Virus record (IMG/VR): IMGVR_UViG_3300047557_002442
Location: 37,220-101,219 of that record
Strand: one strand, 5' to 3'
Length of the DNA: 64,000 nt
Source: a virus
Shown: one piece after another, positions 45,470-59,952 of the stretch
Position numbering within the stretch: position 1 is the stretch's first letter
How the letters are laid out: every line of letters begins with the position of its first letter
Notes under the pieces: model-generated
Databases searched by the model: none
What the model was told of the DNA's origin: nothing
What the model saw: only the letters and a program-made list of their open reading frames with translations
Position numbers and translations under genes: made by a program

Positions 45470-45548
45470 TGGTGGGTCCCGTGGGATTCGAACCCACTAT
45501 CTATCGGTTATGAGCCGATTGCTTATACCAGATTTAAGCTTGAGACCC
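45470..45548 (-). tRNA. tRNA-Met or tRNA-Ile2 (CAT)
   Basis: Acceptor GGGTCTC/GGGACCC with one G-T pair, A73, encoded CCA; anticodon CAT in loop CTCATAA. One of three CAT tRNAs here, which fits the usual Met/fMet/Ile2 set; which is which cannot be decided from the gene. Confidence 0.85.
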
Positions 45549-45550
45549 TT

Positions 45551-45624
45551 TGGAGCGGGATAAGGGAATCGAACCCTCACCAAAAGATTGGAAATCTTTT
45601 GTTCTGCCATTAAACTAATCCCGC
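45551..45624 (-). tRNA. tRNA-Gly (TCC)
   Basis: Acceptor GCGGGAT/ATCCCGC, discriminator T, CCA encoded, anticodon TCC. Confidence 0.9.
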
Positions 45625-45815
45625 AGTCCAACTGTTAGCAACTTATGTCCTCACCGTTGGCGTTTGGACGGCCTAATACGTTTAGGAAGACGTTTGGGAG
45701 TTATCCTCCCTAATGACCGAATCCTCATACGTCTATAAGGCAATAACTGTAAATTCAGTTTAGCATTTGCACCCTGACACTACATCGCAGGACAAAGTGG
45801 CTCGGTTCATTTATA
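45625..45815 (-). ncRNA. Candidate structured non-coding RNA in the tRNA array
   Basis: 191 bp with no gene. On the minus strand an outer stem AGACGT/ACGTCT encloses GGGAG-CTCCC and is followed by CCTAA-TTAGG, then a CCGT..ACGG element. Position within the tRNA transcript recalls the T4 stable RNAs C and D. No homology claimed. Confidence 0.35.
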
Positions 45816-46382
45816 CTATGCTGCAAATCTTGAATATCTTGGTAGCTTAGCCTTCAAGTAATCCATTTGGTCAGCAACAACGTTTCTGTTTTGTAAAATA
45901 AAATGTTCCCAACGACATGGTCTATATGGAACATACAGTAAGTGCATTTTAGCTTCTTCTGGTGTTCTGTTAGACTTTGTTTCGTTACAGTCCTTACATG
46001 CAGTTACAGAGTTTTCCCAAGCATTAGTACCACCACGACTTTTTGGAAGTACATGGTCTCTTGTTAGCTTTTCAGGATGAAACTCTCCACCGCAGTAGGC
46101 ACAGATATGATGGTCTCTACGGAACAGTAAATGGTTGCCATGTGTATTGATAGTTGGTCTATCAAACCGACGTTTGCATTCACCTTCAATAGCGATAATA
46201 GATTTGGCAACAATCACACTACGGTCGCCAGTTTTTCTTTGAGTACCACCATGGAACGTAGCTATGTCATCACCTAGCTCCCATACTACTTTGTCTGATG
46301 CATAGTAGTGAATGGCTTCTTCCATAGAAAGCCATTTGAATGGATTGCCAGCAATGTCCAAACCTAATATTCTAACGTCCAC
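45816..46382 (-). CDS. HNH endonuclease
   Basis: 188 aa from GTG 46382 (AGGAGATATC upstream). The C-terminal HNH domain has CAYCGG, LTRDHVLPKSRGGTNAWENSV and CKDCNETKSNRT: zinc knuckles plus the DH-N-N core. The N-terminal 90 residues are of unknown fold. Typical phage or mobile-intron type endonuclease, embedded in the tRNA array; it may be a homing enzyme or a restriction-like nuclease. Confidence 0.85.
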   Translation of the reverse strand: MDVRILGLDIAGNPFKWLSMEEAIHYYASDKVVWELGDDIATFHGGTQRKTGDRSVIVAKSIIAIEGECKRRFDRPTINTHGNHLLFRRDHHICAYCGGEFHPEKLTRDHVLPKSRGGTNAWENSVTACKDCNETKSNRTPEEAKMHLLYVPYRPCRWEHFILQNRNVVADQMDYLKAKLPRYSRFAA

Positions 46383-46390
46383 GATATCTC

Positions 46391-46807
46391 CTATTCCACT
46401 TCTATCCAGGTGTAATCACCCAGCCATTTTACTTGACAGATATAATCATAATGTTTAGGTGCACCACAACTCCAGTCTGTTGGACCATGTCGCGTTAGTA
46501 GTGTACCACCACGCTTCATATCTCTGGCTAGCCAGTATGTTTCTCCATTATGAATCTGGAAGTCATACTTAGCAGCATGTACCCAATCCGTTACTTCTAA
46601 CCTTCGTTTGATACTCTCGGCCTGTTTCTGTAGTACCTTAACAAGGTCCATGATACGGTCATACTCTTGTTGAGCGTGCATACGAGCAACATTCAACATC
46701 ACATCCTTTTGCTGAGTAACTGGAACCAACTCGAACTTTGGTGCTCCTATATCCATTGGATATGTGAGACTGTGATGCCGCATTGGATCTTGATCAGTTA
46801 TTTTCAT
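46391..46807 (-). CDS. DUF2452-like conserved protein
   Basis: 138 aa. TYPMDIGAPKFELVPV at the N-terminus and the C-terminal DWSCGAPKHYDYICQVKWLGDYTWIEV match DUF2452, found in T4-like phages and marine bacteria, function unknown. In between, a helical VKVLQKQAESIKRRLE segment. Lies inside the tRNA array. Confidence 0.75.
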   Translation of the reverse strand: MKITDQDPMRHHSLTYPMDIGAPKFELVPVTQQKDVMLNVARMHAQQEYDRIMDLVKVLQKQAESIKRRLEVTDWVHAAKYDFQIHNGETYWLARDMKRGGTLLTRHGPTDWSCGAPKHYDYICQVKWLGDYTWIEVE

Positions 46808-46845
46808 ATCATAATATTCATTGACAACTTGGATGTTTTATTTAT

Positions 46846-46920
46846 TGGTAGGAGCACAGAGACTCGAACTCTGAAAGTCTGGTTAAAAGCCAGATATGAT
46901 AGCCATTTCATCATACTCCC
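46846..46920 (-). tRNA. tRNA-Lys (TTT)
   Basis: Acceptor GGGAGTA/TGCTCCT, A73, CCA, anticodon TTT in CTTTTAA loop. Confidence 0.88.
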
Positions 46921-46922
46921 AT

Positions 46923-46999
46923 TGGTGCGGATGGTCAGATTCGAACCGACACTTTACGGATTTTAAGTCCGTTGACTCTACCTATTGGCCTACATCCGC
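46923..46999 (-). tRNA. tRNA-Leu (TAA), short variable loop
   Basis: Perfect 7-bp acceptor GCGGATG/CATCCGC, A73, CCA, anticodon loop CTTAAAA. The variable loop is only about five bases, whereas bacterial tRNA-Leu has a long arm. Confidence 0.8.
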
Positions 47000-47061
47000 A
47001 GCTGGAACTTCATAGAGATACAGGCTCTCAGTTCCGATTGCTTTCCTGTATTGCATTATAT

Positions 47062-47138
47062 TGGTGCCCAAGGAGGGATTCGAACCCACACTGTACAGTG
47101 TTTGAAACTGTCGCCTCTACCTATTGCGCTACTTGGGC
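47062..47138 (-). tRNA. tRNA-Leu (CAA), short variable loop
   Basis: Acceptor GCCCAAG/CTTGGGC, A73, CCA; anticodon stem ACAGT/ACTGT around TTCAAAC. Class I variable loop; one mismatch in the T-stem. Confidence 0.78.
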
Positions 47139-47189
47139 ATTGTCTTACCTGTAAGTCATATTACGAATTATGACTTAGATATAAGTGAC

Positions 47190-47264
47190 TGGTGGTAATG
47201 AGTGGACTTGAACCACTAACATTCTCCGTATGAAGGAGGTGGACTACCATTGTCCTACATTACC
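47190..47264 (-). tRNA. tRNA-Met or tRNA-Ile2 (CAT)
   Basis: Acceptor GGTAATG/CATTACC, A73, CCA, anticodon loop TTCATAC. Confidence 0.85.
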
Positions 47265-47271
47265 TAAATTC

Positions 47272-47346
47272 TGGGGTCACCGAGGAGGTTCGAACTCCCA
47301 CTGTAAGAGCCACAATCTTACGTGCTGCCATTACACTACGGTCACC
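47272..47346 (-). tRNA. tRNA-His (GTG)
   Basis: Anticodon loop TTGTGGC, C73 with the extra 5' G (G-1) that is the histidine identity element, CCA encoded. One G-G mismatch in the acceptor stem. Confidence 0.85.
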
Positions 47347-47449
47347 ATTGTTGCTGTTCTCCCCCACTCTCGGATTGCAGCATATATGAGCTTAACGTAC
47401 TCATATTCCCTAGAACGTCTACAGGCATAGGCGCCTACCCTGTAAATTC
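47347..47449 (-). other. 103-bp spacer with palindromic hairpin
   Basis: No gene. The minus strand carries TACAGG-g-TAGGCGCCTA-tg-CCTGTA, a near-perfect hairpin, close to the start of tRNA-Trp. Possibly an RNA-processing element. Confidence 0.4.
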
Positions 47450-47523
47450 TGGCTCCGGTGGAGGGAATCGAACCCCCACTAACGGTTTTGGAGACCGCTG
47501 CGCTACCATTACGCCACACCGAA
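47450..47523 (-). tRNA. tRNA-Trp (CCA)
   Basis: Anticodon loop CTCCAAA, G73 as expected for Trp, CCA encoded, acceptor TTCGGTG/CACCGGA. Confidence 0.88.
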
Positions 47524-47531
47524 GTAAAACT

Positions 47532-47609
47532 TGGAGCATAGAGTGGGATTTGAACCCACGGGGTTACAGTTTTGCAGACTGTTGCTTTGGACCACTCAGC
47601 CATCTATGC
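47532..47609 (-). tRNA. tRNA-Cys (GCA)
   Basis: Anticodon loop CTGCAAA; T73 (U73) is the Cys identity base; acceptor GCATAGA/TCTATGC. Its first bases contain the TAG stop of the preceding protein gene. Confidence 0.88.
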
Positions 47610-48011
47610 TTCGATTGGGAACAACTCCGTAAACTTAGCTGTCATAATTTCAACTAACTTAGGGTCTCTATAAGCATAGTCATCTTCGATCTCTAAGTTG
47701 ATTACTTGTTTGTAACTAAAGTCTGTAATCACATTTGCCAATTCATTCTGCATAGCATTGATTTCGAGTTGCTGGAATGAATCCATACAAAGTATAACAT
47801 CAGCCCAAACAACCAATGCATGTGTTACAGGAACAATGGCATATTCCAAACTGGTCCCTGCACATCTGGTATTAAAATTCCAAGGTGGGCTGCTAAGTAT
47901 ATGAGCAGCGGTAGGAGAGCGCAAACAACCAGCGCTACACACAGTAAGTACTCGGCGATGTCTTCCTTGATACGCATTTTGCACAACTCCTAATTGATTT
48001 CTTTTAATCAT
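47604..48011 (-). CDS. Low-molecular-weight tyrosine-phosphatase-like protein
   Basis: 135 aa from ATG 48011 (GGAG 6 bases upstream). VLTVCSAGCLRSPTAAHIL holds the Cx5R phosphatase loop; the C-terminal EIEDDYAYRDPKLVEIM provides the general-acid Asp region. Likely a phosphatase for arsenate or tyrosine-phosphate type substrates, or a regulator. The stop codon lies inside tRNA-Cys; an early promoter is upstream. Confidence 0.75.
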   Translation of the reverse strand: MIKRNQLGVVQNAYQGRHRRVLTVCSAGCLRSPTAAHILSSPPWNFNTRCAGTSLEYAIVPVTHALVVWADVILCMDSFQQLEINAMQNELANVITDFSYKQVINLEIEDDYAYRDPKLVEIMTAKFTELFPIEA

Positions 48012-48030
48012 CATTTACTCCAAGAAATAC

Positions 48031-48059
48031 ATTATCATGTATCGCATTTATTAAGTCAA
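48031..48059 (-). promoter_or_regulatory. Early promoter within the tRNA array
   Basis: -35 TTGACT, 17 bp, -10 GATAAT; starts right after tRNA-Phe, drives the phosphatase gene and downstream tRNAs. Confidence 0.75.
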
Positions 48060-48060
48060 C

Positions 48061-48136
48061 TGGTAGGACCCCACAGAATCGAACTGTGTCCTCATGCTCT
48101 TCAGGCACGCGCGCAGACCACGTACGCCAGAGTCCT
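48061..48136 (-). tRNA. tRNA-Phe (GAA)
   Basis: Anticodon loop CTGAAGA, A73, CCA, acceptor AGGACTC/GGGTCCT. Confidence 0.88.
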
Positions 48137-48143
48137 ATAAATC

Positions 48144-48220
48144 TGGTCCTCGGAGGTGGAATCGAACCACCACTCTATCGATTATCAGTCGATTGTTTTG
48201 AACCATTAAACTACCCGAGG
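48144..48220 (-). tRNA. tRNA-Ile (GAT)
   Basis: Anticodon stem ATCGA/TCGAT around CTGATAA, A73, CCA, acceptor CCTCGGG/TCCGAGG. Confidence 0.88.
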
Positions 48221-48222
48221 TT

Positions 48223-48297
48223 TGGCGCGGCTGGTAGGATTCGAACCTACATAAGAGGGCTTAGAAGACCCTTGCACATCCCTTGTACCACAACCGC
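48223..48297 (-). tRNA. tRNA-Arg (TCT)
   Basis: Anticodon loop CTTCTAA, G73, CCA, acceptor GCGGTTG/CAGCCGC. Confidence 0.88.
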
Positions 48298-48302
48298 AAA
48301 AC

Positions 48303-48378
48303 TGGCACCCTTGGAAGGAATCGAACCTCCATCATGACGTTCGTAGCGTCGTATTCTAATCCGTTGAACTACAAGGGT
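48303..48378 (-). tRNA. tRNA-Arg (ACG)
   Basis: Anticodon loop CTACGAA, G73, CCA, acceptor ACCCTTG/CAAGGGT. Wobble A34 needs inosine editing by host TadA. Confidence 0.88.
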
Positions 48379-48379
48379 A

Positions 48380-48889
48380 TTACTCTTCCACAATCTCGTC
48401 GTCAGCCATCAAGATTGGACATAATTTTTCTACACTGTCAAACATATGTCTGAGTCTATTTTTATCATATCCATACGAGTCTAATTTGTTTAATACTTTT
48501 TCATTAAAGTCTGGAGCAGCTTCTCTATGATGACGGTGATGTCTATAGAATGAATGCATTCTAAACAATCCATATGCATGCTTTGTTGATAAAGCCATAA
48601 TTGCACATGCACTATCACAATGATCTAAACTATACCAATAAACGTTTCCATGTTTATTAACTGCATCCATTGCTTCAAACAAATCAGCACTTGTGCCACC
48701 AGCACTTGAAACATAGAAACTTATAGTCTTGTTAGGATTACTCTTAACTATTTGAATAATCTCATCATACTCTTCTTTGTCTAGCTTACCGACTATTCTA
48801 TATTCACTGTCAGCTACCTTCTGTACTACAGGAATAGTAGCAGTACAAGCAGTTAATAATAAAAGTATGAATATAAGTTTCACATGCAT
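48380..48889 (-). CDS. Lipoprotein with ClpP/SppA-like serine-protease fold
   Basis: 169 aa. Signal and lipobox LLTAC (Cys15). FYVSSAGGTSADLFEAMDAVNKH resembles the glycine-rich ClpP oxyanion region and HCDSACAIMAL the nucleophile-Ser turn; the following SFYRHHRHHRE may supply the His. ClpP-fold periplasmic lipoproteins are rare. Role unknown; could process envelope proteins. Confidence 0.6.
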   Translation of the reverse strand: MHVKLIFILLLLTACTATIPVVQKVADSEYRIVGKLDKEEYDEIIQIVKSNPNKTISFYVSSAGGTSADLFEAMDAVNKHGNVYWYSLDHCDSACAIMALSTKHAYGLFRMHSFYRHHRHHREAAPDFNEKVLNKLDSYGYDKNRLRHMFDSVEKLCPILMADDEIVEE

Positions 48890-48895
48890 CCTAAT

Positions 48896-48971
48896 TGGCG
48901 ACCCGTAAGGGAATCGAACCCTTATGTCCCACTAGACAGGCGGGCATAATAATCCACTATATGAACGGGCC
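48896..48971 (-). tRNA. tRNA-Asp (GTC)
   Basis: Anticodon loop CTGTCTA, G73 (Asp identity), CCA, acceptor GGCCCGT/ACGGGTC. Confidence 0.88.
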
Positions 48972-48976
48972 AAAAC

Positions 48977-49050
48977 TGGTTGCGGGCGTCCGAATTGCAC
49001 GGCGTCTCGAGCTTATGAGGCTCGCGAGCTACTGTTGCTCCACCCCCGCA
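48977..49050 (-). tRNA. Initiator-like tRNA (CAT) with degenerate elbow
   Basis: TGCGGGGGTGGAGCA at the 5' end, TAGCTCG and CTCATAA are as in bacterial fMet tRNA; A73, CCA. But the D-loop lacks the GG pair, the T-loop reads TGCAATT instead of TTCAAAT, and the T-stem has mismatches. May be defective or specialised. Confidence 0.65.
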
Positions 49051-49056
49051 GTAATC

Positions 49057-49132
49057 TGGTGCCCCCTGTCGGATTTGAACTGACAACCTATCGCTTACAA
49101 GGCGATTGCACTACCAATTGTGCTAAAGAGGC
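49057..49132 (-). tRNA. tRNA-Thr (TGT)
   Basis: Anticodon stem ATCGC/GCGAT around CTTGTAA, A73, CCA. Confidence 0.88.
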
Positions 49133-49133
49133 A

Positions 49134-49209
49134 TGGTACTCAGTGTAGGAATCGAACCTACATAATCTATCTTGTAAGGATAGTCTCTAACCACTCGAGT
49201 CAACTGAGT
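49134..49209 (-). tRNA. tRNA-Val (TAC)
   Basis: Anticodon stem CTATC/GATAG around CTTACAA, A73, CCA, acceptor ACTCAGT/ACTGAGT. Confidence 0.88.
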
Positions 49210-49425
49210 ATAGGTGTTAAGCTACTCGCACTACCGAGCCCTTAACTGAGGTGTTTACCCTGTCTCAACTGTGGCCCTTATGGATGGTACAGTCTCAACC
49301 CACGAATCTTTCAAGGCTCCCTACAACGGGACTTCGAGGTGGCCGCTAAGCCGTATCGTGTGCACCCTGCTCTTATGGTTTGGCAATTACCCACTTTCTT
49401 CAAGTAAAAGTGTAAACTAGTGTTC
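49210..49425 (-). ncRNA. Candidate structured non-coding RNA in the tRNA array
   Basis: 216 bp with no gene. Minus-strand hairpins include GTTAAG..CTCG..CGAG..CTTAAC near the 3' end, CCC..GGG, and CACTTT..AAAGTG near the 5' end. Shares CAGGGTGCA with the spacer at 45.6-45.8 kb. Unknown function. Confidence 0.35.
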
Positions 49426-49499
49426 TGGAGCGGATAACGAGGTTCGAACTCGTGATTCAACCTTGGCAAGGTCGTGTATTACCACTATACTATATCCGC
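49426..49499 (-). tRNA. tRNA-Gly (GCC)
   Basis: Anticodon loop TTGCCAA, T73, CCA, acceptor GCGGATA/TTATCCGC-type pairing. Confidence 0.88.
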
Positions 49500-49500
49500 A

Positions 49501-49567
49501 TGGTGGGGTGTCTTAACAGTGTACTTCCGACACCCCGAACACGTAATGTACACACGTGCCTGCAGCT
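49501..49567 (-). other. Spacer with tRNA-like CCA-ended hairpin
   Basis: On the minus strand GGGGTGTC pairs with GACACCCC around a 16-base loop and is followed by ACCA, just like an acceptor stem with encoded CCA but without the rest of a tRNA. Perhaps a tRNA remnant or minihelix. Confidence 0.4.
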
Positions 49568-49639
49568 TGGTGGACCGTGAGGGAGTCGAACCCTCCAGGA
49601 GTTGCGTGCAAGGCATCTCTGTACCCCGGTACACAGCCC
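49568..49639 (-). tRNA. tRNA-Ala (TGC)
   Basis: Anticodon loop CTTGCAC, A73, CCA, acceptor GGGCTGT/ACGGTCC. One mismatch in the anticodon stem. Confidence 0.85.
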
Positions 49640-49713
49640 ATAATACATCTAGGCACTGATGAGTCAGTTGTTTAAAACTAGCGCTCAATGGAATCCCGCT
49701 TCGTTCCTAAAAC

Positions 49714-49789
49714 TGGTCTCGCATGAAGGACTCGAACCTTCGAACTCTCCGCCCCAAACGGAGTGGTATAGCCGCTAACCGAATGCGAG
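49714..49789 (-). tRNA. tRNA-Pro (TGG)
   Basis: Anticodon stem CTCCG/CGGAG around TTTGGGG, A73, CCA, acceptor CTCGCAT/ATGCGAG. Confidence 0.88.
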
Positions 49790-49796
49790 ATAAAAC

Positions 49797-49873
49797 TGGC
49801 TGCCTAGGGAGGGCTCGAACCTCCGACATCCTGATTAACAGTCAGGCGCAACTACCAACTGTGCTACTAGACA
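49797..49873 (-). tRNA. tRNA-Asn (GTT)
   Basis: Anticodon stem CCTGA/TCAGG around CTGTTAA, G73 (Asn identity), CCA. Confidence 0.88.
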
Positions 49874-49882
49874 ATAATTCTT

Positions 49883-49929
49883 GGGATCATGTTGGCCAAG
49901 GCCTTTTTCGTGCTTGGCGCCGCGATCCC
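49883..49929 (-). other. Stable stem-loop in GC-rich spacer
   Basis: GGGATC/GATCCC outer stem with CCAAG/CTTGG inner stem on the minus strand, in a spacer of 116 bp that is GC-richer than its surroundings. No gene. Confidence 0.4.
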
Positions 49930-49989
49930 TCCGGCCTCCTCCCCACAACTTCAATTGTTGCCGCTCAAAGTTGCCCGAGGATATTTGTT

Positions 49990-50067
49990 TGGTGGGCTCT
50001 CTCGGACTCGAACCGAGACGCAACTCGTTCTAAGCGAGCTAGGTATGCCAATTCCCGTCAAAAGCCC
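49990..50067 (-). tRNA. tRNA-Leu (TAG), short variable loop
   Basis: Acceptor GGGCTTT/AGAGCCC, A73, CCA, anticodon loop CTTAGAA, T-arm CTCGG/CCGAG. Variable loop of about five bases instead of a long arm. Confidence 0.8.
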
Positions 50068-50069
50068 TT

Positions 50070-50161
50070 TGGCGGAGAATATTGGATTTGAACCAATGAT
50101 ACGATTTTACTCATATTCCTTCTTAGCAGGAAGGTGTCTTAAACCACTCGACCAATTCTCC
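50070..50161 (-). tRNA. tRNA-Ser (GCT)
   Basis: Class II tRNA with a long variable arm, anticodon stem CCTTC/GAAGG around CTGCTAA, G73, CCA. Its 5' half is also the 3' end of a protein gene. Confidence 0.88.
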
Positions 50162-50518
50162 GTATTCTGTTTCAGGGTCAATAATAAGAACTGTTCTAGG
50201 TACTATATTTTTATTAATATACACAACCTTATTATCATCTGCCAAGTAGAATGCCCACCCATCAATTAACGTACGATCAACAGGGACAACCTTACCATTT
50301 ACAACAGACTTTGATGCTAATTCGTATCTATTTGACACCCTATTTTTTATTCGCTCTCTATATTTTACTTGCAATCTATATGTCTGTCCACATTCATCAA
50401 CTGCAATTAAATCAATAGGGGAATGATCATCAAATGCAGGAAACACATAGAATCCCTTTTCTTGAAGATCATCAATAACTTTAATTAACCCTTTAACACC
50501 TTTTTGATTTACATTCAT
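50123..50518 (-). CDS. PD-(D/E)XK endonuclease-like protein overlapping tRNA-Ser
   Basis: 131 aa. GFYVFPAFDDHSPIDLIAVDECGQTYRLQVKYR is a clear PD-(D/E)XK core (P-x-D, then Q-V-K) of the PDDEXK_5/I-Ssp6803I kind. An N-terminal helix (KGLIKVIDDLQEKG) completes the domain. The last 13 codons and the TAA lie inside tRNA-Ser. It may be a homing-type nuclease associated with the tRNA array or a junction resolvase. Confidence 0.72.
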   Translation of the reverse strand: MNVNQKGVKGLIKVIDDLQEKGFYVFPAFDDHSPIDLIAVDECGQTYRLQVKYRERIKNRVSNRYELASKSVVNGKVVPVDRTLIDGWAFYLADDNKVVYINKNIVPRTVLIIDPETEYGELVEWFKTPSC

Positions 50519-50550
50519 AATTATATCCTAAATAATTATTTATGTAAGCC

Positions 50551-50571
50551 CAGAGGTTGAGTCAACCTCTG
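50551..50571. promoter_or_regulatory. Perfect palindrome upstream of the nuclease gene
   Basis: 10-bp arms CAGAGGTTGA/TCAACCTCTG around one base. On the minus strand it contains a TTGACT that could be a -35 box, so it may be an operator; a clean -10 is not evident. Confidence 0.5.
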
Positions 50572-50650
50572 TTACAAATAAAATTGGGCGGTTTTCTACG
50601 CTCTCCTAACCTCGAATACATTAAGTCGTAGCTTTCTCCCAAAATAAAAC

Positions 50651-50741
50651 TGGCGGAAGGATGGCGGAATCGAACCCCTGGCTATCCCTAGCTCGCTCTG
50701 CTTTCAAAACAGACGCAACATCCCCGGTTGCATAACCTTCC
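50651..50741 (-). tRNA. tRNA-Ser (TGA)
   Basis: Class II with variable arm GCGAGCTAGGGATAGC, anticodon stem TCTGT/GCAGA around TTTGAAA, G73, CCA. Confidence 0.85.
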
Positions 50742-50748
50742 GTAAAAC

Positions 50749-50823
50749 TGGCAGAGGTACTAGGACTCGAACCTAGACGAACAGCTTCAAAGACTGTTGT
50801 GCTAACCATTACACTATACCCCA
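50749..50823 (-). tRNA. tRNA-Gln (TTG)
   Basis: 5' TGGGGTA as in bacterial tRNA-Gln, anticodon loop CTTTGAA, G73, CCA; weak first pair typical of Gln. Confidence 0.88.
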
Positions 50824-50830
50824 ACAAAAC

Positions 50831-50913
50831 TGGTGGGTGTTGAGGGAATCGAACCCCCTTGCCGAAGCAACTGTTTTACAGACAGCCGTCAATTCCAGTA
50901 TGACCTAACACCC
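50831..50913 (-). tRNA. tRNA-Tyr (GTA)
   Basis: Anticodon loop CTGTAAA, class II variable arm TTGCTTCGGCAA as in bacterial Tyr, A73, CCA. Confidence 0.88.
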
Positions 50914-51062
50914 AATAACCATATAGAAACACACTCTGACTCATCCATTTGGCGTCGACTCCTTTTGAATGCGTTGGATTAATAACCCTCCAACCAGGAC
51001 CCTTTCGGTCTTCATTACTCATAGCTCGCGATCTAATTTCATGAATTGAATGTGCTTTTATA

Positions 51063-51138
51063 TGGTACACGGTACGGGAATCGAACCCGTCCTACTGACG
51101 TGAAAGGCCAGTGTTCTAAACCGATAAACTAACCGTGT
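51063..51138 (-). tRNA. tRNA-Glu (TTC)
   Basis: Anticodon loop CTTTCAC, A73, CCA, acceptor ACACGGT/ACCGTGT. First tRNA of the array in transcription order. Confidence 0.88.
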
Positions 51139-51509: not shown

Positions 51510-51517
51510 TATAAATA
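51510..51517 (+). promoter_or_regulatory. T4-type late promoter of the curli/cyclase operon
   Basis: Perfect TATAAATA on the plus strand, 18 bases before the GTG of the first gene. It marks the operon as late-expressed. Confidence 0.65.
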
Positions 51518-51534: not shown

Positions 51535-51810
51535 GTGGATTTTTTTAAACTTGTAGCAGAAGTAGGTTTTCCAATTGCCGCAGCTGTTGCTGCTGGTTAC
51601 TTTGTCTTCTTAACTTTAAAGTTCATTCTTGCAGGAGTTACATCTTCTGTCAAAGGAATGAGTGGTATCATCACAGCTCTTGATAAAAGAGTAGCAACCA
51701 TGAACCATGATGTTGTACGCATTGATACAAAAGTTAGTCATGCTTTAGGTATCCCACCTGATTTAGATAGAATCGCACGTGCCGAGCAATCTGACGCTCG
51801 TCGTGACTAA
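51535..51810 (+). CDS. Small membrane protein, first gene of the curli operon
   Basis: 91 aa from GTG 51535 (AGGAGGAATAGCT upstream). EVGFPIAAAVAAGYFVFLTLKFI is a single TM helix; the rest is a charged coiled coil ending DLDRIARAEQSDARRD. A paralogue lies at 52046 (same GFPI-AA-GYFVF motif). Perhaps an inner-membrane adaptor of the exporter or a holin-like protein. Confidence 0.6.
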   Translation: MDFFKLVAEVGFPIAAAVAAGYFVFLTLKFILAGVTSSVKGMSGIITALDKRVATMNHDVVRIDTKVSHALGIPPDLDRIARAEQSDARRD

Positions 51811-51923
51811 ATCAACTACCTATCACTTTGATTTCATTATATTTTTGATGTAATGAATGACTCTTAAATTATTACGTTTCTGATTTTATTATATTTTTAT
51901 TAACTTAATATTAAGGACATAAT

Positions 51924-52055
51924 ATGTTCAAAGAACGTAATCTCATGTTCCAAAAGGAACGTGATCGTATGATATGGACTGATCTGGATTTGGCGATTGG
52001 TTGTGTCGTAGCTTATTTCATTGGTATGATTATAGGATTTCTATTATGGATATAG
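51924..52055 (+). CDS. 43-aa membrane protein
   Basis: MFKERNLMFQKERDRMIWTD, then a C-terminal TM helix (LAIGCVVAYFIGMIIGFLL). AAGGA lies 7 bases before the ATG. Its TAG overlaps the start of the next gene (ATGGATATAG). Confidence 0.55.
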   Translation: MFKERNLMFQKERDRMIWTDLDLAIGCVVAYFIGMIIGFLLWI

Positions 52056-52318
52056 CAGCATTAATTAGCAAGTATGGGTTTCCTATAGTTGCGGCAGCAG
52101 GATTAGGGTATTTTGTTTTCTATGTATGGAAGTGGGTAACAACTGACATTAAGCCAGTTGTTGGTGAATCGAATCAAGTTCTTATTAACTTGATCGATCG
52201 CGTAAGAATGTTAGATAACGACCTAATCAGATTAAATCAAAGAGTAAACGTTTATCTTTCATTGAAAGAATCAAATGATAAAAAATCTACCAATAATATT
52301 GATAGCAGTAGTAACTAG
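52046..52318 (+). CDS. Small membrane protein, paralogue of the 51.5-kb gene
   Basis: 90 aa from ATG 52046 (an upstream open stretch belongs to the previous gene). MDIAALISKYGFPIVAAAGLGYFVFYVWKWV mirrors the paralogue; the tail is coiled-coil (DRVRMLDNDLIRLNQRVNVYL). Tandem duplication. Overlaps csgF by 44 bases. Confidence 0.6.
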   Translation: MDIAALISKYGFPIVAAAGLGYFVFYVWKWVTTDIKPVVGESNQVLINLIDRVRMLDNDLIRLNQRVNVYLSLKESNDKKSTNNIDSSSN

Positions 52319-52754
52319 CGTATATGGTGGTGAACTTGTACATCAATTTAATAGCCCTTCCTTCAATGGACAAGGGTTCAGTAGTCACGTATTAACAATC
52401 AAGCAATTAGAAGATCAAGCAAAAGAAAAAAATGAAGCTGCTGAAGATGCAATAAGAGCAAGAGCAGAAGCAGCTGCAAAAGATACCCCACAAGCAAGAT
52501 TCATTGCAAACTTAGAATCACGTATATACAGTCAACTTGCAAAACAATTAACAGATAGTATGTTCGGTGAAGGTGCTACATGTGTAACACCAGGTGTGAT
52601 ATGTGGTACAATTGATAACCTAGGTGGTAATTCTATCACTTGGATGCTTGGTGAAGGTAGTAATTCTGGTAACATTGTTATTACAATCCAGGACTTAAAC
52701 AACAGTAGTAACAGAACAGTAATGGCCGTACCTGTTGGTACGTTCTATTTCTAG
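52275..52754 (+). CDS. csgF: CsgF-like curli assembly factor
   Basis: 159 aa, E. coli CsgF is 138. Signal peptide (LPIILIAVVTSVYG), then ELVHQFNSPSFNGQGFSSHVLTIKQLE, matching the CsgF start E-L-x-F-x-N-P-S-F-G-G-N that inserts in the CsgG pore. The helical middle and the beta C-terminus (NIVITIQDLNNSSNRTVMAVPVG) correspond to the CsgF tail. Located immediately before csgG, with which it forms the outer-membrane channel cap. Confidence 0.78.
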   Translation: MIKNLPIILIAVVTSVYGGELVHQFNSPSFNGQGFSSHVLTIKQLEDQAKEKNEAAEDAIRARAEAAAKDTPQARFIANLESRIYSQLAKQLTDSMFGEGATCVTPGVICGTIDNLGGNSITWMLGEGSNSGNIVITIQDLNNSSNRTVMAVPVGTFYF

Positions 52755-52763
52755 GAGCCGTCA

Positions 52764-53576
52764 ATGAAAAGCCTCTTAGCTTTGTTAATGGTTACTTTAT
52801 TGACTGGATGTGCTTCCTCTATGGTTGCTGGTGCAAAGAAATTTGAAGCACCAGAAGTCCAACAAGGGACATATCTACAACAGAACAAAATTGATGTACC
52901 AGCAGATGGACCAATTCCAGTTGCTGTATATTCATTCCAAGATAAGACTGGTCAACGTAAAAATGTTCCAAACATTGCCAGCTTTAGCTCAGCTGTAACA
53001 CAAGGTGCTGATGCTTACTTAATCAAGGCTCTACAAGATGTTGGTGAAGGTCGTTGGTTCACTGTGGTAGAGCGTGTAGGTTTAGATAATCTAATCAAAG
53101 AGCGTCAAATGATTAGACAAATGCGTGAACAATATCAAGGACGTGATGCAAAGCAATTACCTCCAATGATATTTGCTGGAATACTGATGGAAGGTGCAGT
53201 AACCGGCTACGATTCAAATGTTATGACTGGTGGTTATGGTATGAGAGTGCTCGGTATTGGAGCACAAACTCAATACCAATCAGACAGTGTAACTGTTACA
53301 TTAAGAACAGTCAGTGTCAATACTGGTGAAGTACTAACAACCGTAACTATAACTAAAACAATTCTTAGTTATATGGACAAATTTGGTATGTTACGATTTG
53401 TCGAAGCGGGTGAGCAAGCAATCGAGTCAGAGAGTGGTGTAAGTGTAAACGAAAGTATTAATCGCGCTACAGACTTAGCAATCCAAGCTGCAGTGATTGC
53501 TACAATCAAAGAAGGTGTTCGTAAAGGACACTGGAGCTACAAAGGGCAACCTATTGTAACTCCATTAATAAACTAA
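52764..53576 (+). CDS. csgG: CsgG-like curli secretion pore lipoprotein
   Basis: 270 aa, E. coli CsgG is 277. Lipobox LLTGCASS (Cys16). PIPVAVYSFQDKTGQRK, SSAVTQGADAYLIKALQDVGEGRWFTVVERVGLDNLIKERQ and PMIFAGILMEGAVTGYDSN are the CsgG family core; GIGAQTQYQSDSVTVTLRTVSVNTGEVL covers transmembrane hairpins. It should form the nonameric outer-membrane pore that exports curli-type subunits. GGAG before the ATG. Confidence 0.92.
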   Translation: MKSLLALLMVTLLTGCASSMVAGAKKFEAPEVQQGTYLQQNKIDVPADGPIPVAVYSFQDKTGQRKNVPNIASFSSAVTQGADAYLIKALQDVGEGRWFTVVERVGLDNLIKERQMIRQMREQYQGRDAKQLPPMIFAGILMEGAVTGYDSNVMTGGYGMRVLGIGAQTQYQSDSVTVTLRTVSVNTGEVLTTVTITKTILSYMDKFGMLRFVEAGEQAIESESGVSVNESINRATDLAIQAAVIATIKEGVRKGHWSYKGQPIVTPLIN

Positions 53577-53587
53577 AGGAGTAACAA

Positions 53588-54370
53588 ATGAAACTGTTTA
53601 GCAAACTATTTGGTATGGTGGCTTTAAGTTTCGCATTGTCATCTTTTGCTGTTGAAGCAACTGGACCAAATCGTGTATACATTGAACAAATTGGTAGTTC
53701 TAACTTGATTACAATTGAACAAGTTGGTGGTACTAATGATGTTGGTGGTACTGCTGGTTCAGCAACTGTTGACCAAACTGGTGTTACAACATTGACAGTT
53801 ACTGCACCTAGTGCAACAAACTATGGTACAGTAAATGGTAGTTCAAACCAATTGTCAATAAACCAACGTGGTAATGTTAACCAAGCACAATATAACGTTA
53901 AAGGTAATAACAATACCTATACAAGTAACGTGACTGGTAATGGTAATCAAACAAAACTAAATGTTGGTGATACAAACACAAGTGGTCTTCGTAATACTGT
54001 TAATGAGACTATAAATGGTAACAACAATATGCAAATTACTACTGTAGTTGGTAGTGATAATGCATTGTCTACAACTGTAACTGGTAGTAACAACCAACTT
54101 ACAAATACAGTAACAACAAGTAATGCAGATGTAACACATACTATTACAGGTAGTCGTAACATAGTAAACACACAACAAATTGATGCTGCTGGTGCAAATG
54201 GCCACAGCTTAACAAACTCCATCGTTGGTGATTACAATAGCGTTACAACACAGCAACAAGGTACAAACGATACTACTGTTAATATTGCAACAACTGGTGA
54301 TCATAATACTGTGACAGTACGTACAAGTAGCACAACAATACTCAACCCAGTTTCAGCAATCGCAAGATAA
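53588..54370 (+). CDS. Curlin-repeat (CsgA/CsgB-like) amyloid subunit
   Basis: 260 aa. Signal peptide (FGMVALSFALSSFAVEA). Mature part is Asn/Gln/Gly/Thr-rich with curlin-type repeats: NRVYIEQIGSSNLITIEQVGGTN near the start and several SNQLSINQRGNVNQAQ, GNNNTYTSNV, GNGNQTKLN variants. Such repeats stack into beta-solenoid amyloid. The adjacent pore genes make it the likely exported substrate. Repeat regularity decays toward the C-terminus. Confidence 0.85.
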   Translation: MKLFSKLFGMVALSFALSSFAVEATGPNRVYIEQIGSSNLITIEQVGGTNDVGGTAGSATVDQTGVTTLTVTAPSATNYGTVNGSSNQLSINQRGNVNQAQYNVKGNNNTYTSNVTGNGNQTKLNVGDTNTSGLRNTVNETINGNNNMQITTVVGSDNALSTTVTGSNNQLTNTVTTSNADVTHTITGSRNIVNTQQIDAAGANGHSLTNSIVGDYNSVTTQQQGTNDTTVNIATTGDHNTVTVRTSSTTILNPVSAIAR

Positions 54371-54371
54371 A

Positions 54372-55466
54372 ATGAAATACTGGTTTGTTATTTGTTTGCT
54401 ACTAATTAGTACAATTAGTTGGGCAGCAATAGGATCCGTCGTCGATACAAAAGGAACCTCTTGCTCCATTGAACGTGGAAAGCAAAAACTACCTGGTGAT
54501 AAAGGTGTTGGTATTGAAAGTATGGATACCTATATCACTGGTAGTTGTGTTGCTAACATTACATTCAAAGATGATACTAAAGTCAAAGTCACAGAAAATT
54601 CCAGACTTCTCATAGATGATTTTATTTTTGATCCAAAGCAATCAGATGCTGGAAAGTTAGCATTAAAGGTTGGAATGGGTACTGTTCGTTATGCATCAGG
54701 CCAAATCGCTAAAAACAATCCACAAAAAGTAGATATAAAAACGCCAACAGCTACTATTGCTGTTCGTGGTACAGATTTCAATATGACTGTTGACGAAACT
54801 GGACAGTCATTAATTATTCTTGTTCCTTCATGTAAAGAAGGTGAGAAGATAAAACAATACGAGCTTGAAGAGAACCAATGTAAGGTTGGTAAGATAGATG
54901 TAATTACAGTTGGTGGTACTGTTAGTCTTGATAAGGCATTTGAGGCAACATATGTCACAAGTGCAAACTTACCCCCAACTCCACCTGTTATCATCAATAC
55001 GGTTGAGGGTAATATCAGTAACAGTTTGATTATTGCAAAACCACAAGAAGTAATGAGAGCAAGTAGAGATAATAATAAGGCCAAACGTGATCTTGAGTTT
55101 GAGGAAGAGCAAGCAGAATCAAATAGACAGATTGTTCAAAGAATGAAACAGATGGAAGAACCACCTCCAGCTAAGGTTATGCCATATACATTTGATAATG
55201 GTAGCAAGGGATGTAATCCTTCAATAAACGTTTGTGTGGTTTTTGAAAAGCAGGATGTTCCTGAAGTACAACTAAGGGGTAGAGGGGTTGCCTTTCGTAG
55301 TAATCCTGATCACTATGATGAAGTAAAGACTCAAGGTTACGACTCTAATACGACCGTTAACATCACACATGATGATGCACCAGCAACTGCTTTGATAGGG
55401 TCTGGTGATCCAGGTGGTAACATTGTGAACATAAGACAAAATACTGGAGTTATAAAGACACAATGA
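54372..55466 (+). CDS. FecR-domain secreted protein
   Basis: 364 aa. Signal peptide (FVICLLLISTISWA). Residues about 20-150 form a FecR domain: AAIGSVVDTKGTSCSIERG, SRLLIDDFIFDPKQSDAGKLALKVGMGTVRYASGQ, and PTATIAVRGTDFNMTV. The C-terminal third is charged and low complexity (KAKRDLEFEEEQAESNRQ). FecR proteins transduce envelope signals and are often found beside CHASE2 cyclases in bacteria; here a CHASE2 cyclase is two genes away. Confidence 0.85.
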   Translation: MKYWFVICLLLISTISWAAIGSVVDTKGTSCSIERGKQKLPGDKGVGIESMDTYITGSCVANITFKDDTKVKVTENSRLLIDDFIFDPKQSDAGKLALKVGMGTVRYASGQIAKNNPQKVDIKTPTATIAVRGTDFNMTVDETGQSLIILVPSCKEGEKIKQYELEENQCKVGKIDVITVGGTVSLDKAFEATYVTSANLPPTPPVIINTVEGNISNSLIIAKPQEVMRASRDNNKAKRDLEFEEEQAESNRQIVQRMKQMEEPPPAKVMPYTFDNGSKGCNPSINVCVVFEKQDVPEVQLRGRGVAFRSNPDHYDEVKTQGYDSNTTVNITHDDAPATALIGSGDPGGNIVNIRQNTGVIKTQ

Positions 55467-56581
55467 AAAAACTCCTTCTAATTTTACTACTCCTATGTAA
55501 TGTAGCTTTGGCTAACACAACAGGGCTATCATATACAGTATGTGCTGCAGGAGGTCCTACACCTACAAGAACCTGCTCAGGTAGAACTATACTTGCTACT
55601 GGTGTAAGTCAGAATATTAATTTTGACTGGGGTGGCGGTGGTGTTATGGGTACAGGTAGAGGTGATGGTGTTCTTGTAAACTGGCAAGGGTTTATATTAT
55701 GGCCTGGTACAAGTGGACAACAAACTGTATTTTTCTATTCCGCTTCAGATGATGGTTTCAGTGTAGCTATAAACGGTACATATGCAATCAACAGTTGGCG
55801 TGAACAAGGTGCAAGTTGGTACAATGGTAGTGGTAGTATGACTCTTACTGCTGGACAAGTATATGCTGTCGATATATGGTACTATGAAAATGGTGGTGGT
55901 GCAGCTGCTTTTTGGTATTGGAATACTGGCAGTGGTATTGTACTTGTACCATCAACAAATCTAGCAACAACAAATAACTATTGGGTACCAAGTCTTTGTT
56001 GTGGAGGTAGTAGTGCCCCTATTACAATTGATCTTACGCATTCAAATAGACTGAATACTTTCACAAACCGTACAACAAATGATAGTCGTGTATATGTTGA
56101 ACAGATTGGTAACTTTAATGAAGTCACTATACAACAAACTGGAACAAGAAACAACTACCTAGAATATACTGGTAATGGAATGTCCAATGACGTGAACGTA
56201 ACTCAATCTGGTAATGCTTCAACCACTGCAAATTATATCGATCTCAATGTAAGTGGAAGTAATAATACAGTCAACATGACTCAAACAAGTACTGGTGGAA
56301 CCAAGAGTATGTTTGTGGATGTTCAAAATAACAATAACAATGTTAATATACAGCAGAAGGATAATGGAAGTCATTACATTGATCTAACTATAACTGGTGG
56401 TAGTAAGAACATTGATATTCTTCAGCAAGGAAGTGCTGCTCATCGAGCAGATATAACCTTAACTGGAGCTAGCCCAAGAGATTTGTCCCTTACCCAAACT
56501 GGTACTACTCAACAATCATATAGTATCAACAGTAATTGTACTTCATCGTGTCAACCAATCACGGTGATACAGGGACAATAA
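55463..56581 (+). CDS. PA14-like domain fused to curlin repeats
   Basis: 372 aa. Signal peptide (LLLILLLLCNVALA). Residues about 45-170 resemble a PA14/GLEYA carbohydrate-binding fold: VLVNWQGFILWPGTSGQQTVFFYSASDDGFSVAINGTYAINSW with GQVYAVDIWYYENGGGAAAFWYW. From about 210 onward, curlin-type repeats (NDSRVYVEQIGNFNEVTIQQTG, NDVNVTQSGN) nearly match the other curlin protein. Possibly the nucleator or an adhesive tip subunit. Confidence 0.78.
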   Translation: MKKLLLILLLLCNVALANTTGLSYTVCAAGGPTPTRTCSGRTILATGVSQNINFDWGGGGVMGTGRGDGVLVNWQGFILWPGTSGQQTVFFYSASDDGFSVAINGTYAINSWREQGASWYNGSGSMTLTAGQVYAVDIWYYENGGGAAAFWYWNTGSGIVLVPSTNLATTNNYWVPSLCCGGSSAPITIDLTHSNRLNTFTNRTTNDSRVYVEQIGNFNEVTIQQTGTRNNYLEYTGNGMSNDVNVTQSGNASTTANYIDLNVSGSNNTVNMTQTSTGGTKSMFVDVQNNNNNVNIQQKDNGSHYIDLTITGGSKNIDILQQGSAAHRADITLTGASPRDLSLTQTGTTQQSYSINSNCTSSCQPITVIQGQ

Positions 56582-56589
56582 ATACATAT

Positions 56590-57120
56590 ATGAAAAGAAG
56601 ACCATTGTGTTTTATAACACGCGATAAAGAATATGAGCTTATCCAACAACTATTAACGATAGTAGATAGCTCTACATTTGATCCTGATAATACAGCTATT
56701 ATTATGGCATCACCAGATTACTCTGCAACCGTTGCAATGCATTTATCACATGCATGGTCACAGAGAGGGGAACCACTTCCCATAATACCAGTTGATGTTG
56801 CATATCCTGACGAAACCCATTTGGATTATTACAATGCCAAGTTCCAGCATGAGTTTGAATGGTGGACAATGGCTAACAATCATCCAAAGAAACTTGTGTT
56901 GGTTGAAGCAGGAATCATCAGAGGTGGTAACTGGAAGTGGTTATTACAAACACTAATAAGTGAATATGGATATGCACGTGAGGATATAACTCTTATAGCC
57001 TTGTGTGAGAATATTCATTCAGAAGTCAAATCTGATTATGTTGGGCAATACTTTGACAATGAAAAAGAAGAGCTAATGTTTTACTACGAAAGGTATAATA
57101 AGCATTGGCCAATTTTTTAA
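56590..57120 (+). CDS. Conserved protein of unknown function in the curli/cyclase operon
   Basis: 176 aa from ATG 56590, chosen because the open frame before it lies within the previous gene. No signal peptide, so cytoplasmic. LPIIPVDVAYPDE and KKLVLVEAGIIRGGNWKWLLQTL suggest an alpha/beta (Rossmann or phosphoribosyltransferase-like) fold, but the PRPP motif is not canonical. Lies 9 bp before the cyclase gene. Confidence 0.6.
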   Translation: MKRRPLCFITRDKEYELIQQLLTIVDSSTFDPDNTAIIMASPDYSATVAMHLSHAWSQRGEPLPIIPVDVAYPDETHLDYYNAKFQHEFEWWTMANNHPKKLVLVEAGIIRGGNWKWLLQTLISEYGYAREDITLIALCENIHSEVKSDYVGQYFDNEKEELMFYYERYNKHWPIF

Positions 57121-57129
57121 GGAGTACCA

Positions 57130-59154
57130 ATGAAAAGATTGCTTTCGCCATGGCTTGCACTTTTAACTCTTTCACTTCTTGTTGTTCTAAGAATTTCAGA
57201 TCCGAGTTTCATTGAGAGTATTAGATTAAGATATTTCGACACTCTAATCACAAGCCAGCCTCAAACAATATCCCAACAAATACATGTAGTTAACATCGAT
57301 GATGCAGCCATAAATAAGTATGGTCAATATCCATTCCCGAGAGGTCAATATGCAGAAATTATACAACATCTTTACAGCAATGGTGCTGGGTTGGTTGTTG
57401 CTGGGCTGTATCTTCCTGACAGTGATCGTTTTGGACAGGACAGTCGACTGGCTGACATCCTGGATAAGCACCCTGTAGTCTTTCCACATACTGGAGTTGA
57501 TTATGAGGTTAATAAAGAAATTTATAGACCAGGTGTGTCCGAAATTGGTAGTCCTGCTTCTTCTTTTGCCGTTAGTTATCCTGGTATACTACCCAACGTT
57601 CCTGCTGTTAATGAACATGCTGCTGGTATTGGAGTAGTTAATGTTCTGCCTGAGATTGATGGTGTGGTTCGTCGTGTACCTATGGTCGTTGCCAGTGCTG
57701 GCAGACTCTACCCATCCATTACTCTTGAGACCCTTAGAGTCGCAGCAGGGGATCCAAGTTTCCAAGTCAAATCCTCAGACTATGGAATCGAAGCAGTTAG
57801 AATCCCTCACTTCAAAACAATCCAAACAGATGCTATCGGAAGAGTCTGGATTGACTGGTCTACAAAACCAACAGAACATTCACTTGCGAATCTACCGAAA
57901 TCTTTCGACGGATCAATTGTTATATTGGGAGTCACTGCTAGGGGACTCAACAACCCAGTTGCGACCGCCAGAGGAGAGATCTATCCTCATTATCTACAAT
58001 CTGCCATATTAGATACTCTTGTATCTGGAAAGAACATAAGCAGACCTGATTGGATGGATGGGGCTGAAATACTTGGTACAATTTTATTAGCTATTATAGC
58101 TATTCTTTTAACGAGGTGGACATATGGGTTTGTGGCTTTTGGTATTATTATCGGTGCTGTATATTATACTAGCAGTAGTGCATTTGGGACGTACTCCTAC
58201 TTGGTTGACTGTAGCTTCCCAATTGTTAGTCTATGCTTTGTTTATATACATTCTTATACAGTCAAGTTCCTGTCTGAGCTAAAACAGAAACTCCAAATAA
58301 AGAAACAATTCGGTACATACTTGTCTCCTGCAATGGTTGAAAAGTTGCAGAAGAATCCAGAGCTTTTAGCTTTGGGTGGTGAGTCAAGAGAGTTGTCTAT
58401 TATGTTTACGGATGTTCGTGGTTTCACTACTATCTCTGAACATTATGGTAAAGATGTACAAGGTCTAACCAAGATTATGAACCGTTACATGACTGCTATG
58501 ACTCGTAAGATTATAGACAATAACGGTACACTTGACAAATACATTGGTGATGCACAGATGGCATTCTGGAATGCTCCATTAGATGAACCTAACCATGCTA
58601 AGAAAGCTGTCAAGACTGCATTAGAGATGCTTGAAGATTTGGAAGCATTCAATACTGAAATTAAACGAGAAGGTATACCAGCTTTTGGTATGGGTCTTGG
58701 TATCAATACTGACACAGTTGTTGTTGGTAACATGGGTTCCGATCAACGTTTTGATTATACTTGTCTTGGTGATGGAGTCAATCTAGCTTCAAGACTTGAA
58801 GGTCAAAGCAAACCTTATGGTGTTAAGATTGTAATTGGTTCTAAGACGGCTGAACAAGTTAAAGATGAATACCCAGTTGTTGAATTGGATTGTATTGCTG
58901 TTAAAGGTAAAACAGAAGGTGTTAACATTTATAGTATATGTGCTTATCAAGAAGACCACTACAAACTTCATAAGAAGTACTTAAAAGCATACTATGATGG
59001 TAATTGGGAAGATGGCGGAGCTATTTTCCTTGCGACACAACTTTCTGCAGATGGTCCACCAGATATGAGACAATACTATCTTAATATGATAGAAAGAATG
59101 TCTGAAGGTAAGCCTGATAACTGGGATGGTACATACAGAGCTACGTCAAAGTAG
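57130..59154 (+). CDS. CHASE2-domain class III adenylate cyclase
   Basis: 674 aa. TM helix at about 7-22, extracytoplasmic CHASE2 (about 30-310: QQIHVVNIDDAAINKYGQYPFPR, GVVRRVPMVVA), then three TM helices (about 315-385) and a cyclase domain. Catalytic residues are intact: SIMFTDVRGFT (metal Asp, ~425), LDKYIGDAQMAFW (substrate Lys and second metal Asp), FDYTCLGDGVNLASRLE (Thr and the transition-state Asn/Arg). AAGGAG before the ATG. It should make cAMP in response to an envelope signal. Confidence 0.9.
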   Translation: MKRLLSPWLALLTLSLLVVLRISDPSFIESIRLRYFDTLITSQPQTISQQIHVVNIDDAAINKYGQYPFPRGQYAEIIQHLYSNGAGLVVAGLYLPDSDRFGQDSRLADILDKHPVVFPHTGVDYEVNKEIYRPGVSEIGSPASSFAVSYPGILPNVPAVNEHAAGIGVVNVLPEIDGVVRRVPMVVASAGRLYPSITLETLRVAAGDPSFQVKSSDYGIEAVRIPHFKTIQTDAIGRVWIDWSTKPTEHSLANLPKSFDGSIVILGVTARGLNNPVATARGEIYPHYLQSAILDTLVSGKNISRPDWMDGAEILGTILLAIIAILLTRWTYGFVAFGIIIGAVYYTSSSAFGTYSYLVDCSFPIVSLCFVYIHSYTVKFLSELKQKLQIKKQFGTYLSPAMVEKLQKNPELLALGGESRELSIMFTDVRGFTTISEHYGKDVQGLTKIMNRYMTAMTRKIIDNNGTLDKYIGDAQMAFWNAPLDEPNHAKKAVKTALEMLEDLEAFNTEIKREGIPAFGMGLGINTDTVVVGNMGSDQRFDYTCLGDGVNLASRLEGQSKPYGVKIVIGSKTAEQVKDEYPVVELDCIAVKGKTEGVNIYSICAYQEDHYKLHKKYLKAYYDGNWEDGGAIFLATQLSADGPPDMRQYYLNMIERMSEGKPDNWDGTYRATSK

Positions 59155-59299: not shown

Positions 59300-59656
59300 A
59301 TGAAAAAGGTTCTAGTTTTACTCTTATTATCGCTAAATGCTATGGCAGTTGATTATAGCGATCACAAAGAACTCTATATGGCAAATGAAGCAGGTGGTGA
59401 AATTGTACTTACATTAGAACCCTGTGCATTTGCCGAAGCGAAGAAGCTTGGTTTTGAAAATAGATCATATGCTACTATTGCTGATGGTAGCATTAAGGAA
59501 GAGGGCTGCTGGCTTGCTCCAGATATGAAGGATGCTCCGCAAGTTCAAGGAATAGCTATTATTCCAATAGTAAACTTGTGGTACGATAATATAATCCTAC
59601 CGTTCCCTCAAAATATGTTTGAGCCACGATTACGAGCTCGAAAGGATACAATATGA
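59300..59656 (+). CDS. Small secreted protein (GCW type)
   Basis: 118 aa with signal peptide (VLVLLLLSLNAMA). Mature part contains GGEIVLTLEPC and EEGCWLAPD, a two-cysteine pattern shared with the next gene. AGGAGAACCG precedes the ATG. Family seen in several phages, function unknown. Confidence 0.6.
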   Translation: MKKVLVLLLLSLNAMAVDYSDHKELYMANEAGGEIVLTLEPCAFAEAKKLGFENRSYATIADGSIKEEGCWLAPDMKDAPQVQGIAIIPIVNLWYDNIILPFPQNMFEPRLRARKDTI

Positions 59657-59952
59657 GGGCAATAGCTTTTACTTTATTATTATCATTCTCAACTACTATA
59701 CTTGCTGATACATATCTCGTGTATGTTATCAATCAATATACAAGAGTTGTTTTAAATAAGCGTGAGTGTTTAGTTCCAGGATTGAATGGGAATGCTGCAG
59801 TTGTACAAAATGCTAAAGGACAATATATACAAGGTTGTTGGCATGTTGATCGTAACAACAGCAACCATGTTCGCATTGATTGGAATAATCCAGCAGCACC
59901 TGGCGACTTTAGCGTTATCGAAGCAAATAAATTTAATTCTGTTACAGAATGA
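59653..59952 (+). CDS. Small secreted protein (GCW type), paralogue
   Basis: 99 aa with signal peptide (AFTLLLSFSTTILA). KRECLVPGLNG and YIQGCWHVDRN repeat the C...GCW pattern of the preceding protein; the ATG overlaps its stop. Likely a disulfide-bonded periplasmic domain. Confidence 0.6.
   Translation: MRAIAFTLLLSFSTTILADTYLVYVINQYTRVVLNKRECLVPGLNGNAAVVQNAKGQYIQGCWHVDRNNSNHVRIDWNNPAAPGDFSVIEANKFNSVTE

Follow-up and report, generated by a model that had tools for sequence, protein, structure and literature searches.

A curli-type secretion module in a T4-like marine phage: a further example of a published system, with some unreported details

Why would a T4-like marine phage carry what looks like a curli secretion operon, and has such an operon been described in phages before? 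Both questions are raised by a stretch of 64,000 nucleotides (the window; positions 37,220 to 101,219 of IMG/VR record IMGVR_UViG_3300047557_002442), whose source record comprises 101,219 bases and is possibly a fragment. The UvsX protein of the record is nearest to those of cyanomyophages (58-60%), a DnaB-type helicase and a ribonucleotide reductase are also encoded, and the phage sequence contains 26 tRNAs. Between the tRNA cluster and the replication genes, positions 51535-59154 form a block on the + strand amid genes otherwise on the - strand, and the GC skew shifts to match (Table 1). The block encodes, in this order, two paralogous single-TM proteins of ~90 residues, CsgF, CsgG, curlin protein 1, a FecR protein, the PA14-bearing curlin protein 2, a phrog_29004 protein and a CHASE2-cyclase. 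The cluster is real and well conserved, and represents a fresh example of a published oddity with some details that have gone unreported.

Table 1. Features of the curli-type block and its upstream motif (positions in the window)
Feature	Position	Strand	Evidence or remark
T4-type late-promoter motif TATAAATA	51510..51517	+	just 5' of first start codon; enriched in related loci
Small membrane protein a (one TM segment; starts with GTG; DARRD motif at the C-terminus), phrog_18771	51535..51810	+	
Small membrane protein b (one TM segment), paralogous to a, phrog_18771	52046..52318	+	
CsgF	52275..52754	+	PF10614 1.5e-9, above cut-off
CsgG outer-membrane pore lipoprotein	52764..53576	+	PF03783 1.1e-49
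Curlin-repeat protein 1, putative major subunit of the fibre	53588..54370	+	periodicity, unit and family profiles
FecR-domain protein, predicted secreted	54372..55466	+	PF04773 5.3e-10
Curlin-repeat protein 2, N-terminal PA14, presumed adhesin	55463..56581	+	PF07691 1.3e-6
phrog_29004 protein, probable passenger insert	56584..57120	+	only this locus among curli loci examined
CHASE2 sensor + class III adenylate cyclase	57130..59154	+	PF05226 5.4e-35, PF00211 1.6e-19

A first-pass annotation had read the block as a complete curli cluster with CsgF, CsgG, two curlins, FecR, CHASE2 and a cyclase. All of these are present and each passes profile tests. Two further observations go beyond that annotation, namely the PA14 domain on the second curlin and the nature of the first two ORFs as paralogous small membrane proteins. 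For the pore, the phage CsgG family profile matches the solved E. coli CsgG at 1e-70, and the lipobox Cys is unchanged across 14 phage CsgG sequences. Judged by its sequence, the block qualifies as a type VIII (curli) secretion system on account of CsgG, CsgF and a secreted curlin-repeat subunit, but not on account of CsgE, the periplasmic gate (PF10627), which had no match across the 101-kb record. The word 'complete' thus calls for qualification. Phage T8SS modules described earlier likewise have no CsgE (PMC9599517), and hence we do not count CsgE as essential for a type VIII secretion system.

The curlin repeats need more than Pfam, as PF07012 scores 17.9 and 16.2 bits in the two single curlin sequences, under the cut-off of 20.7. 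However, curlin protein 1 shows a periodicity of G/N/Q, with z 6.6 for a spacing of 11 residues and z 4.5 for one of 22. A profile of the repeat unit, derived solely from bacterial curlins adjoining bacterial csgF/csgG, reaches 10 bits or more in 73/110 of the phage first curlins and in 40/75 of the second ones; none of the shuffled versions (0/110 and 0/75) scores as high, and neither does any CsgG, CsgF or cyclase sequence. Among solved structures, the curlin-repeat protein 8c50 is moreover matched by the curlin family profile (1e-13). Taken together, the periodicity, the unit profile and the 8c50 match indicate that the curlin repeats are real despite the sub-cut-off Pfam scores. Structure prediction had been proposed as a check; the AlphaFold2 model of curlin protein 1 is all-beta (pLDDT 81.5), but comparison with solved folds returned weak beta-helix matches, none of them significant.

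Curlin protein 2 has a variable N-terminal part. Among 40 homologues, curlin repeats were detected in 25, PA14 in 12, GLEYA in 7 and F5/8C in 3. In phage pairs whose CsgG proteins are 60-80% identical, the N-terminal part of curlin 2 shares on average 32-36% identity, compared with 50-54% for the curlin part and 51-60% for FecR, and is the fastest-diverging stretch of the module. Some pairs look like cases of domain replacement, for example L030/L032 with 19% identity in the N-terminal and 64% in the C-terminal part. Such a pattern is that of a target-changing adhesin.

The FecR domain was found in 33/33 family members. In the FecR protein, a signal-peptide-like helix at the start leads straight into the FecR domain, the only domain identified, and the predicted fold resembles the PupR periplasmic signalling domain (E 4e-4). 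A role as an anti-sigma iron regulator was rejected since no N-terminal cytoplasmic anti-sigma domain ahead of a TM helix was found, and a C-terminal curlin repeat, judged by eye, was dropped because the bacterial-curlin unit profile gave at least 10 bits in 1/121 sequences only. The domain also matches the fold of PDB 5ix9, a 'cell surface anchoring domain' (rmsd 1.1 A, 62 columns, E 0.019); equating the two is without sequence support, no paper on the link was found, and we treat the match as a lead only. FecR-domain genes lie beside or at most ~1.6 kb from CHASE2 genes in ~6/20 gammaproteobacterial loci (a raw count), suggesting that a FecR-CHASE2 partnership may predate the phage module. 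The cyclase retains all catalytic residues: the metal Asp pair D428 and D474, the adenine-specifying Lys/Asp pair K470/D548 and the Asn/Arg transition-state pair N551/R555. The metal, Lys/Asp and Arg residues are kept in 102/102 homologues and the Asn in 78/102, the window phage included, whereas Ser replaces this Asn in 24/102, among them Methylophilales phage Melnitz.

Searching IMG/VR with CsgG, and separately with the cyclase, gave >500 related viral loci in either case, indicating that curli systems are widely distributed among aquatic T4-like phages. The loci sampled were the best 80 of >500 matches per scan, near-duplicates included, and hence the fractions given here describe close relatives rather than all phages. 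Among the 59 sampled loci that have a downstream cyclase and sufficiently wide flanks, the cyclase being a condition of selection, CsgF, curlin, FecR and the membrane pair occur in 59/59 and the second curlin in 40/59. The nearest bacterial csg loci, mostly in Pseudoalteromonas, share with the window the adjoining CsgF, CsgG and curlin-repeat genes; in contrast, the phage-type FecR, the cyclase and the membrane pair are confined to the window in this comparison and were not found within the ~20 kb examined around the bacterial loci. The possibility that the extended module came from bacteria was considered and rejected, as the few genome-collection contigs having it contain phage-like genes and have the appearance of phage contigs misbinned into MAGs.

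Of the same 59 loci, 35 carry the membrane pair upstream and co-oriented, and 24 carry it downstream in convergent orientation. When the search began from the pair, module genes were found in 52/52 wide-flank loci, and in an annotated phage collection the pair occurs solely in six records of Melnitz and HTVC008M. From its position, the pair probably corresponds to the 'histidine kinase' genes before csgF in PMC9599517. A kinase domain (HisKA, ATPase) was not found in 36 members of the family, each of ~90 residues, which makes the 'histidine kinase' label doubtful for the phrog_18771 family. The holin family phrog_4898 matches 21/36 members weakly (best 5e-6), the window copy by its first residues only, and a YvrJ match fell below the cut-off. 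The resemblance to holins might weakly point to some link with lysis.

A late promoter had been proposed ahead of the operon, and this is supported by the position of TATAAATA, which is followed by AGGAGG ahead of the first start. Upstream of the counterparts of the first gene, the motif occurs in 19/72 related loci compared with 1.8 expected from shuffles. Upstream of CsgF the count is 8/108 against 2.9 expected, inside the shuffle range, and two other tested genes gave 0/87 and 2/80. As the motif is not above chance in the window as a whole (4 against 5.4 expected), the late-promoter argument rests on position.

The first-pass annotation had regarded the combination of pore, substrates and signalling as not previously described. 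As an idea, such a module fits the gene identities, and the like gene order that had been anticipated in related phages does exist in HTVC008M, in Melnitz and in the >500 matching viral loci. The claim of novelty, however, fails because PMC9599517, HTVC008M and Melnitz show the module. A curli operon in phages was reported in 2020 together with the idea of 'sibling capture' (PMC7029224), and the curli genes of Melnitz were described in 2022, with discussion of a lysis-pore role and without recognition of the curlin subunits (PMC9004378). Also in 2022, a T8SS of CsgF, CsgG, CsgA/B, FecR, a second CsgA/B and an adenylate cyclase was described in pelagiphage podoviruses and myoviruses, FecR, the cyclase and a 'histidine kinase' being named there as what sets the module apart from bacterial operons (PMC9599517). 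The window follows the viral order given there, CsgF-CsgG-curlin-FecR-(curlin)-cyclase. Compared with the pelagiphage systems (HTVC008M, HTVC023P-type podoviruses), it has the small membrane genes, CsgF, CsgG, curlin, FecR, second curlin and cyclase in the same order, but at another genome position (tRNA cluster/replication genes), and its proteins are ~39-46% identical to those of HTVC008M. The gene order of the Melnitz operon is also alike; Melnitz differs in the Ser at the catalytic Asn of its cyclase, which the window keeps, and in a second curlin protein with no match to the PA14 domain that the window copy has. No riboswitch comparable to the Melnitz tmRNA one was found near the module, as Rfam matched tRNAs only in the window. 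Three details were not found in PMC9599517, PMC7029224 or PMC9004378: the exchangeable carbohydrate-binding-type domain on curlin 2, the tight tie of the membrane pair to the module, and the separate lysis enzymes in the window phage and in contig L169 discussed below.

What might the module do? We favour, at about even chances, type VIII (curli) secretion by which the infected cell acquires, at a late stage, a curli-like surface fibre or coat with adhesive properties. The outer-membrane pore would consist of CsgG and CsgF and the bulk of the fibre of curlin protein 1, and curlin protein 2 would display PA14, elsewhere F5/8C, as a candidate glycan-binding adhesin. The CHASE2 sensor domain is expected to face the periplasm, and together with the secreted FecR-domain protein the cyclase could form a sensing arm that converts the state of the fibre or envelope into cAMP; the small membrane pair would have some inner-membrane role. 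The benefit may be that infected cells or lysis debris stick to new hosts or particles. Capture of new hosts had been suggested in the first-pass annotation and is the best-supported function in our reading, but it is already published as 'sibling capture'. This adhesive reading is in line with the pore-plus-substrate set, which 59/59 viral loci seen in full context retain as a unit, although these are best-scoring relatives with near-duplicates, and with PA14 (12/40) or F5/8C (3/40) on the fastest-diverging part of curlin 2, although neither domain is proof of sugar binding. The enriched late-promoter motif, the conserved cyclase residues and the gammaproteobacterial FecR genes near CHASE2 genes also argue for it. 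Against it stand the failure to find CsgE and the report that clumping was not seen in cells infected with Melnitz (PMC9004378), although the curlin subunits had gone unrecognised in that study.

A curlin layer might instead mask receptors, leading to superinfection exclusion of competing phages, or might protect the cell, as put forward in PMC9599517. The gene set would suit a secreted curlin layer, but the late-promoter motif implies expression late for exclusion and the exchangeable binding domain is left unexplained, so that we consider such a coat unlikely. Still less probable is a CsgG pore, perhaps acting with the holin-like pair, that sets the time of release by depolarising the envelope (PMC9004378). 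The late-promoter motif and the weak holin likeness of the pair agree with such a role, as does the podovirus-like contig L169, where the curli genes stand just upstream of a holin-like gene (identified by inspection, without a Pfam match) and a gene matching Phage_lysozyme (3.1e-48). However, L169 thereby has its own lysozyme, and the window phage encodes, outside the module, an M15 peptidase as well as a cell-wall hydrolase of SleB type whose N-terminus is hydrophobic. With these separate lysis enzymes CsgG is not needed for release, which weakens both the lysis-pore idea and the earlier suggestion of a pore for export at lysis; moreover, the curlin subunits and the PA14 domain would be left unexplained. 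An ungated CsgG pore could also admit larger nutrients, siderophores or cofactors, as raised in PMC7029224 and PMC9599517 and in keeping with the CsgE gate not being found. Uptake has no need of curlins, yet these are present in 59/59 full-context loci, and the link to iron comes from the FecR name, for a protein that looks secreted and in which no anti-sigma part was found. We therefore regard an uptake channel as very improbable.

The adhesive reading can be extended, tentatively and with more doubt than belief, to T4-like phages installing a full adhesive organelle on dying cells, with an exchangeable glycan-binding domain, a FecR-CHASE2 cAMP sensor and an obligate membrane pair. If true, viruses would here be building an apparatus for adhesion and signalling, and no bacterial counterpart with this composition was found. 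The exchangeable domain and the linkage of the membrane pair provide predictions that separate the ideas published so far (adhesion, coat, uptake, lysis); Melnitz and HTVC008M, both available in culture, are suited to such predictions.

One gene of the block stands apart from these considerations. The 'unknown cytoplasmic protein' that the first-pass annotation had placed in the module is indeed encoded, as the phrog_29004 gene before the cyclase, a position in which the pelagiphage T8SS differs. Among ~140 curli loci, it adjoins curli genes in the window locus only, and homologues occur elsewhere in cyanophages S-SSM7 and S-RSM4, suggesting that it is probably a passenger.

The phage curli module is present on six contigs from GTDB MAGs (L164-L167, L169 and L172), whose sources include Rhodobacteraceae Water_Bin34, Maricaulis IN14 and Saprospirales SP157. 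Phage-like genes flank the module on several of these contigs, which are probably of phage origin and were placed in the bacterial MAGs through binning errors. On the podovirus-like contig L169, the curlin and FecR genes are directly followed by holin-like and Phage_lysozyme genes, so that the module and the lysis cassette adjoin. In the phages collection, CsgG is also matched by OR851715.1, a 1.5-kb 'Salmonella phage' record; the matching sequence is probably the host's own csgG and not phage-encoded.

At the start of the module, a short ORF lies between the small membrane genes a and b, its 3' part overlapping the start of the following gene (Table). At the other end, the operon may extend beyond the cyclase gene to two small proteins, neither of which was matched in Pfam or PHROG searches. 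Within the cyclase family, 24 of the 102 phage class III homologues carry Ser in place of the catalytic Asn, and their activity is uncertain.

The phage genome further encodes a peroxiredoxin and a tRNA cluster that includes an HNH endonuclease gene.

Table. Locations of the features discussed
Feature	Location	Strand	Remarks
Predicted tiny one-TM protein	window 51924-52055	+	43-codon ORF; MFKERNLMFQKERDRMIWTDLDLAIGCVVAYFIGMIIGFLLWI
Two small proteins	window 59300-59952	+	signal-peptide-like starts; same strand as cyclase, 3' of its gene
Curlin, FecR, holin-like and Phage_lysozyme genes	L169:2125-4798		podovirus-like contig
Ser-bearing cyclase homologue	L001:8935-10983		one of 24
tRNA cluster	window 45470-51138	-	26 genes
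AhpC/TSA peroxiredoxin	L245:13986-14561 (the phage's own record)	-	PF00578, 1.9e-32
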